Below, in pieces: positions 210-7,785 of a stretch of 64,000 bases of DNA. The stretch comes from Candidatus Zhuqueibacterota bacterium (GTDB taxonomy: Bacteria; Zhuqueibacterota; Zhuqueibacteria; Residuimicrobiales; Krinioviventaceae): the NCBI GenBank assembly GCA_016934825.1, contig JAFGSB010000109.1, positions 1-64,000 of the forward strand, read 5' to 3'. The position numbers and the translations under genes are program-made. Each line of letters starts with the position of its first letter. Position 1 is the stretch's first letter. The notes below the pieces were generated by a model. It was not told where the DNA came from, did no database searches, and saw only the letters and a program-made list of their open reading frames with translations.

Positions 210-1058
210 ATGGAAAAAACAACTCATTCAAAGATATGTATGATAACCGGCGCCACTTCGGGTATTGGCAGGGAAATGGCATTCGCTCTGGCCGGATTGA
301 ATTACAGTATCATTCTTGTCGGTCGAAATGAAAAAAAATGCCAAACGACCCGAAAAAAAATCATAAAACGGTCCGGTAATAAACAAATAAATTTTCTGAC
401 GGCCGATTTTTCCGATCTGTCACGAATCCGAAACCTGGCGAATGAATTTATAAAAAAATATCCAAAACTGGATATATTGATCAATAACGCCGGTGTTTAT
501 TTAATGAACCGGTCGGTAAGCGTTGATGGATATGAGAAAACCTTTGCCGTTAATCATCTTGCACACTTTTTGTTGACCAATCTATTGCTGGAAAAATTAA
601 AAACCAGCCCAGCCGCCCGGATCATTAATGTCTCCTCCATGGCCCACGATAAAAGAAATATAGATTTTGATGATTTGTTATACGAAAAGAATTATAACGG
701 TCTAAACGCCTATTCCCGCTCAAAGCTTGCCAACATATTATTTACTTATGAGTTGGCCCGACTGTTAAAGGACACAAAAATTACGGTTAATGCTTTTCAC
801 CCCGGTTTTATTGCCACAAATTTCGGCAGAAATAATGGACTGATCCGCTTTGTACTAAGACGTCTGATAAAAAGGGGCGCTTTGACACCGGCTGAGGGGG
901 CAGATACCGGTATTTATTTGGCAACTTCGGAGGAAGTAGACCAGGTTTCAGGTAAATATTTTGTCAATAAAAAAGCGGTCAATTCTTCTACAGAGTCATA
1001 TGATGAAAATTTGGCCAAAGAATTATGGAATAAAAGTCGTGAACTTACCGGATTATAG
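210..1058 (+). CDS. Short-chain dehydrogenase/reductase (SDR), retinol-dehydrogenase-like
   Basis: A 282-residue classical SDR that should catalyse NAD(P)-dependent oxidation or reduction of an alcohol/carbonyl; the substrate cannot be told. Visible: the dinucleotide-binding TGATSGIG at residues 13-20, NNAG at 92-95, the catalytic serine region near 142-143, and the catalytic YSRSK (Tyr168, Lys172). A further HPGF motif follows in the C-terminal half, as in RDH/WW-oxidoreductase-type SDRs. An in-frame stop lies just upstream, so Met at 210 is the first possible start, although no Shine-Dalgarno precedes it. It is separated from the trp operon by that operon's own promoter, so it is probably unrelated to tryptophan synthesis. 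No signal peptide is seen; the protein is likely cytosolic. Confidence 0.88.
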   Translation: MEKTTHSKICMITGATSGIGREMAFALAGLNYSIILVGRNEKKCQTTRKKIIKRSGNKQINFLTADFSDLSRIRNLANEFIKKYPKLDILINNAGVYLMNRSVSVDGYEKTFAVNHLAHFLLTNLLLEKLKTSPAARIINVSSMAHDKRNIDFDDLLYEKNYNGLNAYSRSKLANILFTYELARLLKDTKITVNAFHPGFIATNFGRNNGLIRFVLRRLIKRGALTPAEGADTGIYLATSEEVDQVSGKYFVNKKAVNSSTESYDENLAKELWNKSRELTGL

Positions 1059-1070
1059 AAAAAAAAATTA

Positions 1071-1098
1071 TTGACTTTTAGAAATATATTATTATATT
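1071..1098 (+). promoter_or_regulatory. Putative trp operon promoter
   Basis: TTGACT (1071-1076), a 16-nt spacer and TATATT (1093-1098), placed about 30 bp before the leader peptide start. The downstream element also reads TAnnTTTG at 1093-1100, the -7 consensus described for Bacteroidota, with a TTG 19 nt upstream. Seen in sequence; activity is inferred. Confidence 0.6.
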
Positions 1099-1129: not shown

Positions 1130-1204
1130 ATGAAAGAATATAAATTAAATAGTGCTTTATTATGGTGGTGGTGGTACCAGGTCAGAGAGGTGTACCACCG
1201 ATAA
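1130..1204 (+). CDS. trpL: trp operon leader peptide with four tandem Trp codons
   Basis: A 24-codon ORF (ATG 1130, TAA 1202-1204) preceded by GAGAG. Codons 12-15 (1163-1174) are TGG TGG TGG TGG, followed by Tyr-Gln. A short ORF rich in the regulated amino acid's codons, immediately before a hairpin series and trpE, is the defining mark of ribosome-mediated transcription attenuation. When charged tRNA-Trp is scarce the ribosome should stall on the Trp run and prevent formation of the 1170-1199 hairpin. The function is inferred from this architecture. The ORF is too short to be tested by protein homology. Confidence 0.9.
   Translation: MKEYKLNSALLWWWWYQVREVYHR
1170..1199 (+). promoter_or_regulatory. 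trp leader pause (1:2) hairpin
   Basis: GGTGGTAC (1170-1177) pairs perfectly with GTACCACC (1192-1199) across a 14-nt loop. The 5' arm covers the last two Trp codons and the 3' arm overlaps the end of the leader ORF, as expected for segments 1 and 2 of an attenuator. The 3' region can alternatively pair with the first terminator: CCAC and CGAT (1195-1202) against GTGG (1241-1244) and ATCG (1235-1238), leaving a two-base bulge. That pairing would be the antiterminator. Confidence 0.75.
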
Positions 1205-1236
1205 AGTAATTATTATATGTAAATTGTAAATATTAT

Positions 1237-1272
1237 CGCCGTGGATGCACCAGCATTCACGGCGTTTTTTTT
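1237..1272 (+). terminator. trp attenuator terminator 1
   Basis: CGCCGTGGATGC (1237-1248) pairs with GCATTCACGGCG (1253-1264), a 12-bp stem with one G-U pair and an ACCA loop, followed by eight T residues. This is a strong intrinsic terminator 33 nt after the leader stop codon. Confidence 0.9.
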
Positions 1273-1323
1273 AGGCGCTGTGAATAACAGAAATTTTAAA
1301 AAGTTCGCAGCGCCTTTTTTTTT
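1273..1323 (+). terminator. trp attenuator terminator 2 (tandem)
   Basis: AGGCGCTGTGAA (1273-1284) pairs with TTCGCAGCGCCT (1304-1315), again 12 bp with one G-U pair, followed by a run of T to 1323. It directly abuts terminator 1 and ends 15 nt before the trpE start, so readthrough of both is needed to express the operon. Confidence 0.85.
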
Positions 1324-1338
1324 ATTGGAGAATCAATT

Positions 1339-2814
1339 TTGAAAATCACATCTTTTGAACAATTTGAATTGAATTATAAAGCCGGTTATTTACAGCCCAT
1401 AAGCGCTGAAATACTGGGTGATCTTGACACACCCGTCTCAATTTTTTTGAAAGCGACCAAAGGGCCTTATCGCTTTTTGCTGGAAAGCGTCGAGGGCGGA
1501 GCACAGCGCGGCCGGTATTCGATCATCGGCGATAGTCCCTTAGCTGTTTTTAAAAATAAAAACAATGTTTCACAACTACATAATTTTGTTACCGGTGATG
1601 TAAATCAATTCACCGGCGATCCGTTTCATTTTTTAAAAAAAATTCTGCAAAAGTATGTTAACACGCCTGCTTCCGATACACCTTTTATCAACAGCGGACT
1701 ATTTGGTTATCTGAGTTATGATTCGATTCGCCACATAGAACGGCTCCCTGAACTCGCCGTTGATGATATCAACCTGCCCGATATTCATTTGTTCATCCCG
1801 CAAAAAATGATTGTCTTTGATAATCTTTACAACAAGATTATCATTATCAATTTTGTCATTCCTGCGGGCGACAAAGAAATAGAATATCGTAAAGCAGTAC
1901 AGAATACCCGGCAAATCATTAAAAATATCCAGACACAAAATCTGCCCAGAAACGGTCATCAGGAGGCGCCGAAATCCGGACATATACAAAGTAATTTAAA
2001 AAAATCCGAATTTGAAAAAATTGTATCCAAAACCAAAGAATATATCAGTAAAGGGGATATTTTTCAGGGTGTATTGTCACAAAGATTAAAAGTCACCACC
2101 CAGGTTCCCCCTTTTGATATATACAGGGCGCTGCGCGTCATAAATCCGTCACCATATATGTTTTATTTGGAACTGGATGGTTTGTTTGTACTGGGTTCAT
2201 CACCGGAAACGCTGGTTAAGCTAAATAACGGCAAAGTTGAAGTCAAACCGATTGCCGGTACCCGGAAAAGGGGCGCCGATGATAAAGAAGACGAATTATT
2301 GATAAAGGAGCTGCTTGCCGATCCCAAAGAGCGGGCCGAGCATACAATGCTGGTCGATCTGGGCCGGAACGATATCGGCAGAATAGCCGAATACGGTACC
2401 GTTCATGTTGATGATCTCATGATAACAGAAAAATATTCGCATGTCATTCATATCGTCTCCTCGGTGAGCGGTACATTACGTAACGGAATGGATTCGATTG
2501 ACGTTTTCAAGGCCTGTTTCCCGGCGGGAACCGTATCAGGAGCGCCGAAAGTCAGGGCTATGGAAATTATTGAAGAATTAGAGCCAACACGGAGAAGCAT
2601 ATACGCAGGAGCGGCCGGTTATTTCAGCTTTGACGGCAATATGGATGTGTGTATCGCCATACGAACAATATATGTCAAAGAAGGTACGGCATATTTACAG
2701 GCGGGCGCCGGGATTGTAGCCGAGTCAGTTCCGGAAAAAGAATATGAAGAGACATTAAACAAAGCAAGAGGTTTGCTCAAAGCGATAGAATACGCTGAAG
2801 GAGGACTGGTATGA
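1339..2814 (+). CDS. trpE: Anthranilate synthase component I
   Basis: Makes anthranilate from chorismate with ammonia delivered by TrpG, the first committed step of tryptophan synthesis. The 491 residues show the N-terminal LLES element associated with Trp feedback binding, then the chorismate-binding core: a PSPYMFYLE stretch, GSSPETLV, the GTRKRG loop, HTMLVDLGRND, FPAGTVSGAPK, and C-terminal GAGIVAES. The start is a TTG with GGAG eight bases upstream; no ATG fits better. The stop overlaps the trpG start by 4 bp (ATGA), implying translational coupling of the two subunits. Expression should be under the double attenuator just upstream. Confidence 0.97.
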   Translation: MKITSFEQFELNYKAGYLQPISAEILGDLDTPVSIFLKATKGPYRFLLESVEGGAQRGRYSIIGDSPLAVFKNKNNVSQLHNFVTGDVNQFTGDPFHFLKKILQKYVNTPASDTPFINSGLFGYLSYDSIRHIERLPELAVDDINLPDIHLFIPQKMIVFDNLYNKIIIINFVIPAGDKEIEYRKAVQNTRQIIKNIQTQNLPRNGHQEAPKSGHIQSNLKKSEFEKIVSKTKEYISKGDIFQGVLSQRLKVTTQVPPFDIYRALRVINPSPYMFYLELDGLFVLGSSPETLVKLNNGKVEVKPIAGTRKRGADDKEDELLIKELLADPKERAEHTMLVDLGRNDIGRIAEYGTVHVDDLMITEKYSHVIHIVSSVSGTLRNGMDSIDVFKACFPAGTVSGAPKVRAMEIIEELEPTRRSIYAGAAGYFSFDGNMDVCIAIRTIYVKEGTAYLQAGAGIVAESVPEKEYEETLNKARGLLKAIEYAEGGLV

Positions 2815-3374
2815 TCCTGGTCATCGATAATTACGATTCTTTTACATATAATCTTGTACAATATATCGGTTCAATGGGAAAAGAATTAATCATAAAAAGA
2901 AATGATTGTATCAGTATCCGGGAAATTGAAGAACTGGAACCGGATAAAATTGTCATATCTCCCGGGCCCGGGTACCCGGTTAATGCCGGAATTTCTCTGA
3001 GTACGATAAAACATTTCCATACAAAATGTCCGATCCTGGGGGTCTGTTTGGGCCATCAGGTCATTGCCGAAGCCTTTAAAGGCAGGATCATACAGGCTAA
3101 AGAACTGGTGCATGGAAAATACAGCACGATTCATCATGACGGAAAATATTTATTCAAGGGCGTACAAAATCCCCTGTTGGCAGGCAGATATCATTCCCTC
3201 GTCGTTGAAAGGGAATCCCTGCCCGGATGTCTTGAAATCACCGCCAAAACGGATGATGAACAAATAATGGGTATACGCCATAAAGATTACCGGGTCGAAG
3301 GAGTACAATTTCACCCGGAATCCATTTTAACGAACGAGGGGGTAAAAATAATTGAGAATTTTATCAATATGTAA
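2811..3374 (+). CDS. trpG: Anthranilate synthase component II (glutamine amidotransferase)
   Basis: Class I glutamine amidotransferase of 187 residues that hydrolyses glutamine and passes ammonia to TrpE. Key elements: DNYDSFTYNL at the N-terminus, the oxyanion motif SPGPGYP, the nucleophile Cys in GVCLGHQ, and the His-Glu pair in FHPESI. A GGAGG lies just before the ATG inside the end of trpE. It is not fused to trpD or trpE, unlike in many bacteria. It could also serve p-aminobenzoate synthesis as an amphibolic subunit, but its position makes TrpG the primary role. Confidence 0.96.
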   Translation: MILVIDNYDSFTYNLVQYIGSMGKELIIKRNDCISIREIEELEPDKIVISPGPGYPVNAGISLSTIKHFHTKCPILGVCLGHQVIAEAFKGRIIQAKELVHGKYSTIHHDGKYLFKGVQNPLLAGRYHSLVVERESLPGCLEITAKTDDEQIMGIRHKDYRVEGVQFHPESILTNEGVKIIENFINM

Positions 3375-3385
3375 GGGAGAATAAA

Positions 3386-4402
3386 ATGAGAGAATTATTG
3401 GAAAAATTAAGTAGCGGTATAAATCTTGAAGAAAACGAGGCCTATGAAGCCATGCTGTCGATCATGAATGGTGAATTAACGCCGTCGCAGATTGCCGGTT
3501 TTTTAATGGGCCTGAAAATGAAAGGTGAAACCATTGATGAAATAACAGGATTCGTAAAGGCCATGCGTGAAAAATCAAACAAAGTAATCGGGCCGGAAGG
3601 ACTTCTCGATACCTGCGGAACCGGCGGCGACGGCGCTTCAACATTCAACGTTTCAACGGCGGCGGCAATTGTCGTATCGGCGGCCGGCATCCCGGTGGCG
3701 AAACATGGAAACAGGTCCGTATCCAGCAAATGCGGCAGCGCGGATGTATTCAATAAACTGGGTGTAAAAATTGATATGCCGCCGGATCAGGCGCAAAAAT
3801 GTTTGCAGGAAATCGGTCTCGCCTTTTTATTCGCGCCGGTCTATCATCCGTCAATGAAACACGCCGTAATCCCTCGGCGTGAGATGGGAATCCGTACCGT
3901 ATTCAACATCCTCGGCCCCATGTCCAATCCCGCGGGTGTTAAAAAACAGCTCGTCGGCGCGTTTAATATCGAAACCGCCGAAAAAATGGTCCGGGTGCTC
4001 AAAAATACCGGTAGTGAACATGTCCTGGTTATGCACAGCGAGGACGGGCTTGATGAAATTTCCATCAGCGCGGACACCATCGTGTTTGAACTCAAGGACG
4101 GACAAATACAAAAACAGAAAATCAGGCCGGAAGATACCGGTATTCCAAAACAATCACGTAATGCAATAAACGGCGGGGATGATACGATGAACGCAGATAT
4201 TATTCGAACCCTGTTACAGGGGAAAAAAGGGCCCAGCCTGGATATTACCGCTCTTAACGCCGGCGCCGCTATTTATACGGCCGGGAAATCCGATTCCATT
4301 AAACAGGGTGTTGAAATCGCCTACGATATGCTGTTTTCAGGTAAAGCCTCCGCCAAACTTGCGGAACTCATTGATTTTTCTTCAAGTATTCCGGCAAACT
4401 GA
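3386..4402 (+). CDS. trpD: Anthranilate phosphoribosyltransferase
   Basis: Transfers the phosphoribosyl group from PRPP to anthranilate, the second pathway step. Its 338 residues are normal for the family. Visible are the PRPP-binding GTGGDGASTFNVSTAAA stretch, the anthranilate/PRPP loop KHGNRSVSSKCGSADV, RREMGIRTVFN and GPMSNPA. An AAGGGAGA ribosome-binding site lies 7 nt ahead of the ATG, and only 11 bp separate it from trpG. Confidence 0.97.
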   Translation: MRELLEKLSSGINLEENEAYEAMLSIMNGELTPSQIAGFLMGLKMKGETIDEITGFVKAMREKSNKVIGPEGLLDTCGTGGDGASTFNVSTAAAIVVSAAGIPVAKHGNRSVSSKCGSADVFNKLGVKIDMPPDQAQKCLQEIGLAFLFAPVYHPSMKHAVIPRREMGIRTVFNILGPMSNPAGVKKQLVGAFNIETAEKMVRVLKNTGSEHVLVMHSEDGLDEISISADTIVFELKDGQIQKQKIRPEDTGIPKQSRNAINGGDDTMNADIIRTLLQGKKGPSLDITALNAGAAIYTAGKSDSIKQGVEIAYDMLFSGKASAKLAELIDFSSSIPAN

Positions 4403-4432
4403 ATCTAAAACAAATCGGGATTATTAAGGAAT

Positions 4433-5218
4433 ATGGATATTTTAACTCAAATTTTAAAAGACATCCGGTTAACGGTCAAAAAAAGACAATCTGAAATACC
4501 GTTGAAAATGATAAGCGAAAAAGCGCATAAAGTTGCCGCCGGAAAAAAGCCGCATACTTTTTACAATGCTCTGAATACCGGCAGAATTGAAATTATTGCC
4601 GAAATAAAAAAAGCTTCCCCGAGCAGGGGAGTAATTTGTAAAAACTTTGATTATCTCAGAATAGCTTATGAATATACACAGGGCGGAGCCGCTGCGATTT
4701 CCGTATTAACAGAGGAAAAATATTTTTCAGGCCGTCTTGAATTCCTGTCGGAAATCGCACAAACAGCATCTCCGCCGCTGCTGCGAAAAGATTTTATCGT
4801 ACATGAATACCAGATTTACGAGGCGGCGGCCCATTCCGCAAGCGCTGTGCTGTTAATCGCGGCGGCCCTTGCTCCAAAAAAACTCAGATATTTTCTTCAA
4901 CTCGCTCATAGTCTGAATATGGACGCGCTTGTCGAAGTGCACGATTTTAAAGAACTGGAAAAGGCTCTGAATGCGGATGCGAAAATTATCGGCGTCAATA
5001 ACAGGGATCTGAAAACTTTTAAAACCACACTGCAAAAAAGCCTGGAAATGAGCGAATTCATACCTGCTCAAAAATTGAAAATCAGTGAGAGCGGAATCAG
5101 TACAAGAGCGGATATTCAAAAGCTGGAAAAAGCCGGGTATAACGCGGTTCTGATCGGAGAAACGTTAATGCGTCAGGCGGACCGCGCGGCATACCTTAAA
5201 CAACTGTCGGGAGTATAA
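4433..5218 (+). CDS. trpC: Indole-3-glycerol-phosphate synthase
   Basis: Converts carboxyphenylamino-deoxyribulose phosphate to indole-3-glycerol phosphate. A 261-residue TIM barrel with EIKKASPSRG (catalytic Lys), LRKDFIV, GVNNRDLKTF, SESGIS and the phosphate-binding VLIGETLM. It is a stand-alone enzyme and not the TrpCF fusion of enterobacteria, since trpF follows as its own gene after 3 bp. Confidence 0.97.
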   Translation: MDILTQILKDIRLTVKKRQSEIPLKMISEKAHKVAAGKKPHTFYNALNTGRIEIIAEIKKASPSRGVICKNFDYLRIAYEYTQGGAAAISVLTEEKYFSGRLEFLSEIAQTASPPLLRKDFIVHEYQIYEAAAHSASAVLLIAAALAPKKLRYFLQLAHSLNMDALVEVHDFKELEKALNADAKIIGVNNRDLKTFKTTLQKSLEMSEFIPAQKLKISESGISTRADIQKLEKAGYNAVLIGETLMRQADRAAYLKQLSGV

Positions 5219-5221
5219 AAT

Positions 5222-5824
5222 ATGTGGCTGAAAATATGCGGTATTACACGTCTTGAAGATGCCGTTAAAGCGGAAAATTTCGGCGCCGACGCGGTCGGGT
5301 TTATTTTTGCAAAAAGTCCGCGGCAAATTGATGTGACCATTGCCGAAAAATTATGTTCCAATATCAAAATACCGAAGATTGGTGTATTCGTGAATGAGGA
5401 ATTGAAAAAAATTATGCGGATACGCAAACGCTGTAATCTGGATATTATTCAATTACACGGCGACGAATCTTCGGAATTTTGTAAAGCCCTGGGAGGAACA
5501 ATAATTAAAGCGATCAGGGTAAAAAACGAGCAATCGATTGAACAAATACAAGCATATACAAATGTATGGAAAATATTATTGGATACATATATACCGGGAC
5601 AGGCGGGTGGAACGGGGAAACAAATCGATAACCGGTTCCTGATTAATAGGGACCTGTCGAATATTATCCTTGCCGGCGGGATTACCCCGGATAATATCGA
5701 TATTATTTTACAAAAATATGCCCCATTCGGTTTGGACATTAGCTCCGGGATTGAGGATTCTCCGGGGAAAAAAAATATCGAAAAAATGGAACTTGTGATC
5801 AAAAAGGTAAAGAAAAGAGGTTAA
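5222..5824 (+). CDS. trpF: Phosphoribosylanthranilate isomerase
   Basis: Amadori rearrangement of phosphoribosylanthranilate, feeding TrpC. A 200-residue TIM barrel with the catalytic Cys in LKICGIT, FVNE, QLHGDE, the catalytic Asp in [13 protein letters not shown] and the phosphate-binding [16 protein letters not shown] precedes the ATG at good spacing, inside the end of trpC. One base separates its stop from trpB. Confidence 0.96.
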
Positions 5825-5825
5825 A

Positions 5826-6989
5826 ATGCGTAAACGCGGTTACTTTGGAATTTTTGGCGGTCAGTTTGTACCGGAACTACTGATGCCGGCATTGCTGGAA
5901 TTAGAACAAGCCTATGAAAAATATATAAATGATGTTCAATTTAAACGGGAACTCTCCTATTTGTTTAAAAATTACGCAGGCCGGCCCACCCCGATCTATT
6001 ATGCAAAAAATTTCACGCGGATAGCGGGTGGAGCCAGGATACTTTTAAAACGTGAAGACCTGAATCATACGGGTTCACACAAATTAAACAACTGTCTGGG
6101 ACAGGCCCTGCTGGCAAAAAACATGGGTAAAAAAAGGATTATCGCGGAAACAGGGGCCGGACAGCATGGCGTGGCCACTGCAACAGCGTGCGCATTACTT
6201 GGACTCGAATGTCATGTATATATGGGCAAAGAAGATACGATCCGGCAGGAATTGAACGTTTTTCGGATGAAAATGCTGGGAACCGAAGTAATTCCGGTTG
6301 AATCGGGAACACAAACCCTGAAAGATGCCATAAATGAAGCGATGCGTGATTGGGTAACAACCGTAAAAACAACTCACTATATCATCGGTTCCGTTGTCGG
6401 ACCGCATCCGTTCCCTATCATGGTAAGGAATTTTCAATCCATCATCGGGCAGGAGGCGCTGCAACAACTTCCGGAATATGGAATTGATATACCCGATTAT
6501 ATAATTGCCTGTGTGGGCGGGGGCAGCAATGCGATGGGTATCTTTCACCCGTTTGTCGATACCAAAGCCAGATTAATCGGTGTGGAGGCGGGCGGTAGGG
6601 GCGCCAATGTCGGCGATCATTCTTCATCCCTGGGCAGAGGAGAACAGGGTGTATTTCACGGTAAAAGAAGTTACTTTTTACAAAACGAATACGGTCAAAT
6701 TTCACCGGCGCATTCAATTGCAGCGGGCCTCGATTATCCGGGCGTGGGCCCCGAACACGCTTATTACAAAGAGACCGGACGCGCCCAATATGTCAGCATC
6801 ACCGATGAAGAAGCTATTTACGCATACAAGAAATTGGCCCGTGAAGAAGGCATTATCCCGGCGCTGGAAAGCGCTCACGCATTAGCGTACGCTCTGAAAC
6901 TGGCGCCGACTATTCCTGAAAGTCAAACCATATTGATCAATTTATCCGGACGCGGTGATAAGGATATTATTACTACAAAAATCAATTAA
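5826..6989 (+). CDS. trpB: Tryptophan synthase beta subunit
   Basis: PLP enzyme condensing indole with serine to give tryptophan, in an alpha2-beta2 complex with TrpA. It has 387 residues and is of the ordinary TrpB1 type. Visible: the PLP lysine in [21 protein letters not shown], the phosphate-binding GGGSNAMG and the C-terminal [14 protein letters not shown] precedes the ATG. Its end abuts trpA. Confidence 0.97.
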
Positions 6990-7002
6990 GATGAGGAAAA
7001 TC

Positions 7003-7785
7003 ATGAACAGATTGAATACGCATTTCAACAACCTGAAAAATAAAAATGAAAAAGCTTTGATATTGTATATCACCGCGGGAGATCCGAACATCAATACAAC
7101 ATTTGAAATCATGAAAGCTTTAGCGGAAAACGGGGCTGACTGTATTGAGCTCGGTATTCCGTTTTCGGACCCAATGGCGGATGGACCGGTTATTCAAAGA
7201 GCATCGACCCGTGCCCTAAAGAACGATGTGAATGTGGATCTGATATTTTCCATTGTAAAAAGATTCAGAGAACATTTCCAGACACCCATGGTACTCATGG
7301 GCTATTTTAATACGATCCTGAGATATGGTATGGAAGCTTTTGTGGACACTTTTAAAAAGGCGGGCGGCGACGGCCTGATCATCGCGGATTTACCTTATGA
7401 AGAAGGTGAAGACTTTGAAAATATATGTAAAACCCGGGATGTCAGTTTAATTTACCTGATTTCCCCGGAAATGGGTTCGGAACGAACCCGAAACATCCTG
7501 TCGGTCACCGATGGTTTTGTATATTGTATATCACATTACGGTACAACCGGAGGCGAATCGAAAACGGAAAATCTGGACGGGATTATCGACTCTATCAAAT
7601 CGATGACGGATTTGCCGGTTGCCGTCGGTTTCGGTATTTCAACACTGCAGCAGGCCCGGAATGCAGGCCGGATAGCCGACGGTATAATCATCGGCAGCTG
7701 GCTTATAAAAGAACTGGAAAAAACGAACGATAAACCTAAAGTCGCCAGTCAATTTACCAAAACATTAAAACAGGCAATTTCATAA
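7003..7785 (+). CDS. trpA: Tryptophan synthase alpha subunit
   Basis: Cleaves indole-3-glycerol phosphate to indole, which is channelled to TrpB. A 260-residue TIM barrel with the catalytic Glu in ELGIPFSDPMADGP, the Asp in ADLPYEE, and the phosphate-binding GFGIS near the C-terminus. The frame is open further upstream into trpB, but the ATG at 7003 has GAGG six bases before it and gives the family's usual N-terminus (MNRLNTHFNNLK). ATG 6991 is a weaker alternative. It is the last gene of the operon. Confidence 0.96.
   Translation: MNRLNTHFNNLKNKNEKALILYITAGDPNINTTFEIMKALAENGADCIELGIPFSDPMADGPVIQRASTRALKNDVNVDLIFSIVKRFREHFQTPMVLMGYFNTILRYGMEAFVDTFKKAGGDGLIIADLPYEEGEDFENICKTRDVSLIYLISPEMGSERTRNILSVTDGFVYCISHYGTTGGESKTENLDGIIDSIKSMTDLPVAVGFGISTLQQARNAGRIADGIIIGSWLIKELEKTNDKPKVASQFTKTLKQAIS

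Follow-up and report, generated by a model that had tools for sequence, protein, structure and literature searches.

The trp operon at the beginning of the stretch of DNA analysed here (64,000 nucleotides, hereafter the window) is preceded by a leader that carries a short reading frame with four Trp codons and, behind it, two terminators in tandem. This raises the question of what a second terminator does in an attenuator, and whether it is switched together with the first or acts independently of it. Our comparison of related genomes and the predicted folds of their leaders argue for a ribosome-mediated trp attenuator whose two terminators, T1 and T2, are probably linked by a chain of mutually exclusive helices. 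The specific relay that we propose, in which ribosome position sets six strands either to 1:2/3:4/5:6 (both terminators on) or to 2:3/4:5 (both off), is held a little less firmly, as likely rather than certain (Table 1).

Table 1. Features of the trp leader, the terminators and the surrounding genes (window coordinates; strands 1 to 6 are RNA segments numbered 5' to 3').
Feature	Position	Strand	Details
Short-chain dehydrogenase gene	210-1058		same direction as trp operon; upstream of leader
Predicted promoter, sigma-70-like	1071..1098	+	TTGACT-16-TATATT, 10/12 matches
Leader peptide ORF	1130..1204	+	24 codons, MKEYKLNSALLWWWWYQVREVYHR then stop; WWW or WWWW in 13/13 relatives' leaders
Sensing site	1163..1174	+	four consecutive Trp (UGG) codons
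Strand 1	1166..1178	+	pairs with 1189-1200 (1:2 hairpin), local fold -13.7 kcal/mol
Strand 2	1189..1204	+	alternative partners: strand 1, and strand 3 as antiterminator
Strand 3 (T1 5' flank, 5' arm, loop)	1233..1251	+	antiterminator partner of strand 2
Terminator T1 (3:4)	1237..1272	+	hairpin 1237-1264, 12 bp, 4-nt loop ACCA, 8 T (1265-1272)
Strand 4 (T1 3' arm and first T's)	1253..1267	+	pairs with strand 3 or, as 1255-1267, with strand 5
Terminator T2 (5:6)	1273..1323	+	hairpin 1273-1315, 13 bp, 17-nt loop, 9 T (1315-1323)
Strand 5 (T2 5' arm)	1273..1285	+	pairs with strand 6 or strand 4
Strand 6 (T2 3' arm)	1303..1315	+	
trpE	1339..2814	+	first gene of controlled operon; PF00425 4.9e-95, PF04715 1e-36
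trpG, trpD, trpC, trpF, trpB, trpA	2811..7785	+	domain matches

The leader region is directly followed by a complete trpEGDCFBA operon, in which the genes from trpG to trpA were recognized by matches to the GATase, Glycos_transf_3, IGPS, PRAI, PALP and Trp_syntA domains. The predicted promoter would leave a 5' UTR of roughly 25 nt ahead of the leader ORF, and in most relatives a TTGACA-like box precedes the Trp codons by 86-103 nt. The trpE start codon is TTG at window positions 1339-1341, a place at which most relatives use ATG. Judged from the names of the loci nearest by TrpE (L031 and L032, the latter from a KSB1 bacterium), the host lineage, a metagenome-assembled one, is of the KSB1 type.

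Relatives were found with a TrpE bait in genomes of the phylum and with a covariance model of T1 and T2. The full arrangement, in which T1 and T2 stand behind a leader that encodes WWW or WWWW, is present in 13 genomes that belong to one TrpE clade (the window's own genome, G001, G002, G004, G006, G011, G013, G019, G066, G070, G029, G040 and G046), and this count covers all readable trp leaders of the clade; G007 was left out because a contig end cuts its upstream region. In the sister TrpE clade, leaders rich in Trp or in both Trp and Tyr are followed by just one terminator, and on the TrpE tree the tandem and single states need one change each (clade support 99/97). Matches of the covariance model outside trpE (in G016, G020, G037, G043, G024, G010 and contig C118 of the window's own genome) were inspected and are no trp leaders, and no relatives were found among viral contigs. 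Two members, G066 (L038) and G070 (L039), are assigned only to the same phylum, yet by TrpE and leader they fall within the window's clade, which could reflect a joint transfer of trp operon and attenuator or a taxonomy that needs review. In G011 (L043) about 100 or more extra bases separate T2 from trpE, where most other members have a short gap.

Across the 13 genomes the run of Trp codons is kept and the remaining peptide is variable, and the leader stop codon, which in the window (1202-1204) is the end of strand 2, stays within strand 2 or just past it. The sequence-only reading of this DNA had proposed a 24-residue leader ORF with Trp codons at 1163-1174, which was borne out by the sequence and by the relatives, and had suggested following the Trp codons and both hairpins through related leaders, where they turned out to be kept in 13 of the 13 readable leaders of the TrpE clade. 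It had also placed a pause hairpin at 1170-1199; the hairpin is present, with limits that the local fold sets at 1166-1200. The 5' arm of this 1:2 hairpin lies inside the Trp codons, and a ribosome stalled on them would occupy strand 1. Strand 1 hardly varies, so that a permutation test of the 1:2 pairing was uninformative.

An antiterminator, absent from that earlier reading, is strongly supported by the comparison, because changes in strand 2 from genome to genome are matched by changes in the loop and the 5' flank of T1. The predicted 2:3 pairing comprises 16 bp in three blocks (GGUGUA/UGCACC, CCAC/GUGG and CGAUAA/UUAUCG), and the partner of strand 2 lies partly in the T1 loop and partly 5' of T1, neither portion being paired within T1 itself. 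Two sets of segments vary together, the first as GGUG/CACC, CAAUG/CAUUG, CAGUG/CACUG and GGGUAG/CUACCC, and the second as CGAUAA/UUAUCG, CGAUG/CAUCG and CGAUU/AAUCG. Own 2:3 pairs had a mean energy of -17.9 kcal/mol, compared with -14.1 kcal/mol when partners were shuffled (0 of 20000 permutations as good), a result that also holds inside the close clade alone. This covariation is the strongest single result of the analysis, and on its strength ribosome-mediated attenuation is very likely; the locus has an ORF with Trp codons, a 1:2 hairpin that overlaps them, a 2:3 alternative and an intrinsic terminator before the first gene.

Both terminators are conserved in the 13 genomes, and the T run of T2 is kept in every one, as a working terminator needs. 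The earlier description of two complete 12-bp terminators is right as to their number and as to T1, and T2 has instead 13 bp and a 17-nt loop. Folding of the RNA from 1120 to 1340, also proposed there, gave -69.8 kcal/mol versus -42.9±4.3 for dinucleotide shuffles (z = -6.3; 0 of 200 shuffles as good), a stability far beyond that of shuffled sequence. In control DNA of 1.26 Mb, made up of stretches of two relatives and the window, only three same-strand tandem pairs within 45 nt were found among 281 terminators, all of them trp leaders. Chance tandem terminators are therefore ruled out, with no tandem pair besides those of the trp leaders, and tandem terminators are not habitual in these genomes; none of the other candidate leader-peptide attenuators in the same 1.26 Mb was convincing. 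A leader with at least three Trp codons and tandem terminators that recurs in 13 genomes is far beyond chance.

The connection between T1 and T2 lies in the complementarity of the T1 3' arm with the T2 5' arm, which is found in all 13 genomes, here as AUUCACGGCG with CGCUGUGAAU and in G029, G040 and G046 as a GGC-type. In the window the predicted 4:5 helix joins 1255-1267 with 1273-1285 over 13 bp including wobbles (-17.1 kcal/mol); with adjoining bases, the 4:5 hairpin reaches -13.5 to -19.6 kcal/mol in 13/13 and covers strand 5, and in 11 of the 13 no more than about 1% of randomly paired terminators match the energy of the duplex. The 4:5 covariation score was 0.231 versus 0.127 for shuffles (0 of 500 as high), and the signal was gone when the strands were slid. 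Two double-sided changes were found, one on a deep branch, from G-C to C-G at the base of the helix, and the other in the G011/G019 lineage, where U-A became U-G (G011) and C-G in the sister G019. The covariation nevertheless appears thin, with few events, and it is weak within the close clade, where a permutation test was not significant (1988 of 20000). The 4:5 helix and its role are thus inferred from conserved complementarity, folding and this limited covariation, whereas the leader, its Trp codons, T1, T2 and the 2:3 pairing are supported by comparison of the sequences.

Predicted folds at successive stages of transcription are consistent with such a role. With the part of the leader that a stalled ribosome would cover masked, 2:3 with 4:5 was the most favourable fold in 12 of 13 genomes as long as strand 6 had not yet appeared, the exception being G011, whose stalled-state minimum is a different one. 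When the leader was masked to the stop codon, the final fold was 3:4 and 5:6 in 13/13, with a mixed intermediate before strand 6 emerges in G029 and G002. Once the whole leader is present, the equilibrium fold is again 3:4 with 5:6 in 12/13, which means that the switch depends on kinetics, and these could be estimated only roughly: the barrier for refolding from 4:5 to 5:6 came to 9-13 kcal/mol in 11/13 (rates to an order of magnitude), so that in these the polymerase should pass before refolding takes place. The 4:5 helix is weaker in G046 and G011, with barriers of 6.5 and 8.0 kcal/mol.

Taken together, the conserved folding pattern suggests that the position of a single ribosome toggles both terminators. 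With sufficient Trp-tRNA, the leading ribosome would reach the leader stop codon and cover strand 2, which would let T1 form; strand 4 would then be consumed in T1 and strand 5 left free, so that T2 would form too, and a polymerase escaping T1 would meet T2. When Trp is short, the ribosome would stall on the UGG codons with strand 1 masked, and strand 2 would pair with strand 3, which would block T1 and release strand 4. Strand 4 could then capture strand 5 co-transcriptionally, once strand 5 has been transcribed and before strand 6 exists, and the resulting 4:5 helix would keep T2 from forming and allow trpEGDCFBA to be transcribed. T2 would in this way copy the state of T1 rather than be an unconditional fail-safe, and the conserved 4:5 complementarity predicts that it switches together with T1. 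The sequence-only reading held that two terminators in a row would lower basal readthrough multiplicatively. This may apply to polymerases that get past an already formed 3:4 hairpin, but not to escapes due to 2:3, for which the conserved 4:5 helix predicts a linked T2. Its central claim, that this is ribosome-mediated trp attenuation and that two terminators take part, finds good support in the comparison across 13 genomes.

An unconditional T2, standing as a fail-safe behind a classical single-terminator attenuator and trimming transcription in both states, is the first alternative to be weighed. Tandem terminators are a common back-up arrangement, and the presence of 5:6 in the full-length equilibrium fold of 12 of the 13 leaders would fit it as well. 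Nevertheless, we regard it as unlikely: every member shows complementarity between strands 4 and 5, above what is expected of terminator pairs and with compensatory changes, and the 1.26 Mb of these genomes holds no other back-up pairs. Moreover, a strong unconditional T2 would cap induced expression, yet no readable member of the clade lacks T2; a linked T2 would meet that objection.

The likeness of strand 5 to strand 3, and of strand 6 to strand 4, gives rise to another explanation. Strands 3 and 5 look duplicated, and the 4:5 complementarity could be a by-product of the origin of T2 from T1; T2 might then owe its retention mainly to a structured 5' end that it gives the trpE mRNA, or to insulation against transcription arriving from upstream, to which the co-directional gene upstream would be relevant, with 4:5 as a relic. 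This we find improbable, given that the T run is kept in all 13 genomes and that strands 4 and 5 changed together in G019. In addition, most members have U in strand 5 where strand 3 has C, so that only strand 5 pairs with both strand 4 (G-U) and strand 6 (A-U). Lastly, it is hardly credible that the Trp-rich ORF is accidental and the leader a T-box, a TRAP-regulated one or one controlled by some other ligand, as no point in favour of this was found, the window gave no Rfam match at gathering level (chance-level ones only at E up to 10) and no covariance-model match to a T-box, the genome has no TRAP gene, WWW/WWWW is kept in 13 genomes while other residues vary, and the stop codon is kept in or just after strand 2.

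The linked attenuator that we favour shares with classical trp attenuators (E. coli trpL, RF00513; Corynebacterium and Streptomyces, whose trp leaders are classical ribosome-mediated attenuators, PMC1262725) the consecutive Trp codons, the 1:2/2:3/3:4 alternatives, a T-run terminator before trpE and a stop codon that lets the ribosome cover strand 2, and it differs from them by the second terminator and the fourth alternative helix. It gave no match to Rfam RF00513 (Trp_leader) at gathering score, nor at E up to 10, and so works like those trp leaders but lies outside that sequence family. In E. coli the attenuator leaves 10-15% basal readthrough, which is tolerated beside the repressor (PMC1183508). 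Here, in contrast, no TrpR was found in the genome above cut-off (best match sub-threshold, E 0.53), nor any gene for TRAP (TrpBP, PF02081), for which control genomes gave matches; the attenuator may therefore carry Trp control alone, and it may fall to the leader to keep basal expression low.

Regarding the statement that classical trp attenuators have one terminator, the two-terminator form is not unique among attenuators, since ermK of Bacillus licheniformis is described as having two adjacent intrinsic terminators (PMC4335068, citing Kwak et al. 1991). As far as that description goes, ermK shares with our leader both ribosome stalling on a leader peptide and the placing of two intrinsic terminators side by side downstream of the ORF that senses the stall, and differs in that it senses macrolides rather than an amino acid, in a Firmicutes host. 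The Salmonella his attenuator, in an operon under attenuation alone, has an extra hairpin proposed to lower basal readthrough (PMC1183508), which, unlike T2, precedes the terminator and is no terminator itself. Similarly, the gammaproteobacterial form of the rimP-leader has a second tandem terminator with a predicted antiterminator (PMC2965389) but concerns another gene and signal, with no Trp leader peptide. A search of the open-access literature found nothing on tandem terminators in trp leaders or on attenuation in KSB1.

The further view that attenuation would be unusual in this lineage did not hold, as leaders that are Trp-rich and carry a terminator are found throughout the phylum, and in Flavobacterium, a member of the Bacteroidota, amino-acid operons preceded by leader-peptide attenuators have been described (PMC9723704). 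Among the single-terminator trp leaders (L101, L106, L108, L109, L113, L114 and L115; trpE upstream regions of families f9-f11), the ORFs hold many Tyr and Phe codons beside those for Trp (for example FGFWFWYWYYYYARGG), which suggests joint sensing of aromatic amino acids. Several genomes of the same family or order that are at least 90% complete (G003, G008, G010, G014-G018 and G020) gave no TrpE match at E 1e-60 and are possible Trp auxotrophs.

Attenuation itself is thus ordinary here, and two terminators are known from ermK; a trp leader in which the two are linked would be new as a variant. If the proposed linkage is true, terminators can be stacked in an attenuator without shutting off the induced state, by the simple design rule that the second terminator depends on the fold of the first. 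The range of the operon would be widened by adding a second terminator without loss of induced expression, and tight control would be explained in an organism where no TRAP or clear TrpR was found. The leader would also be a conserved candidate RNA element, without a counterpart in Rfam, from a phylum that has been little studied.
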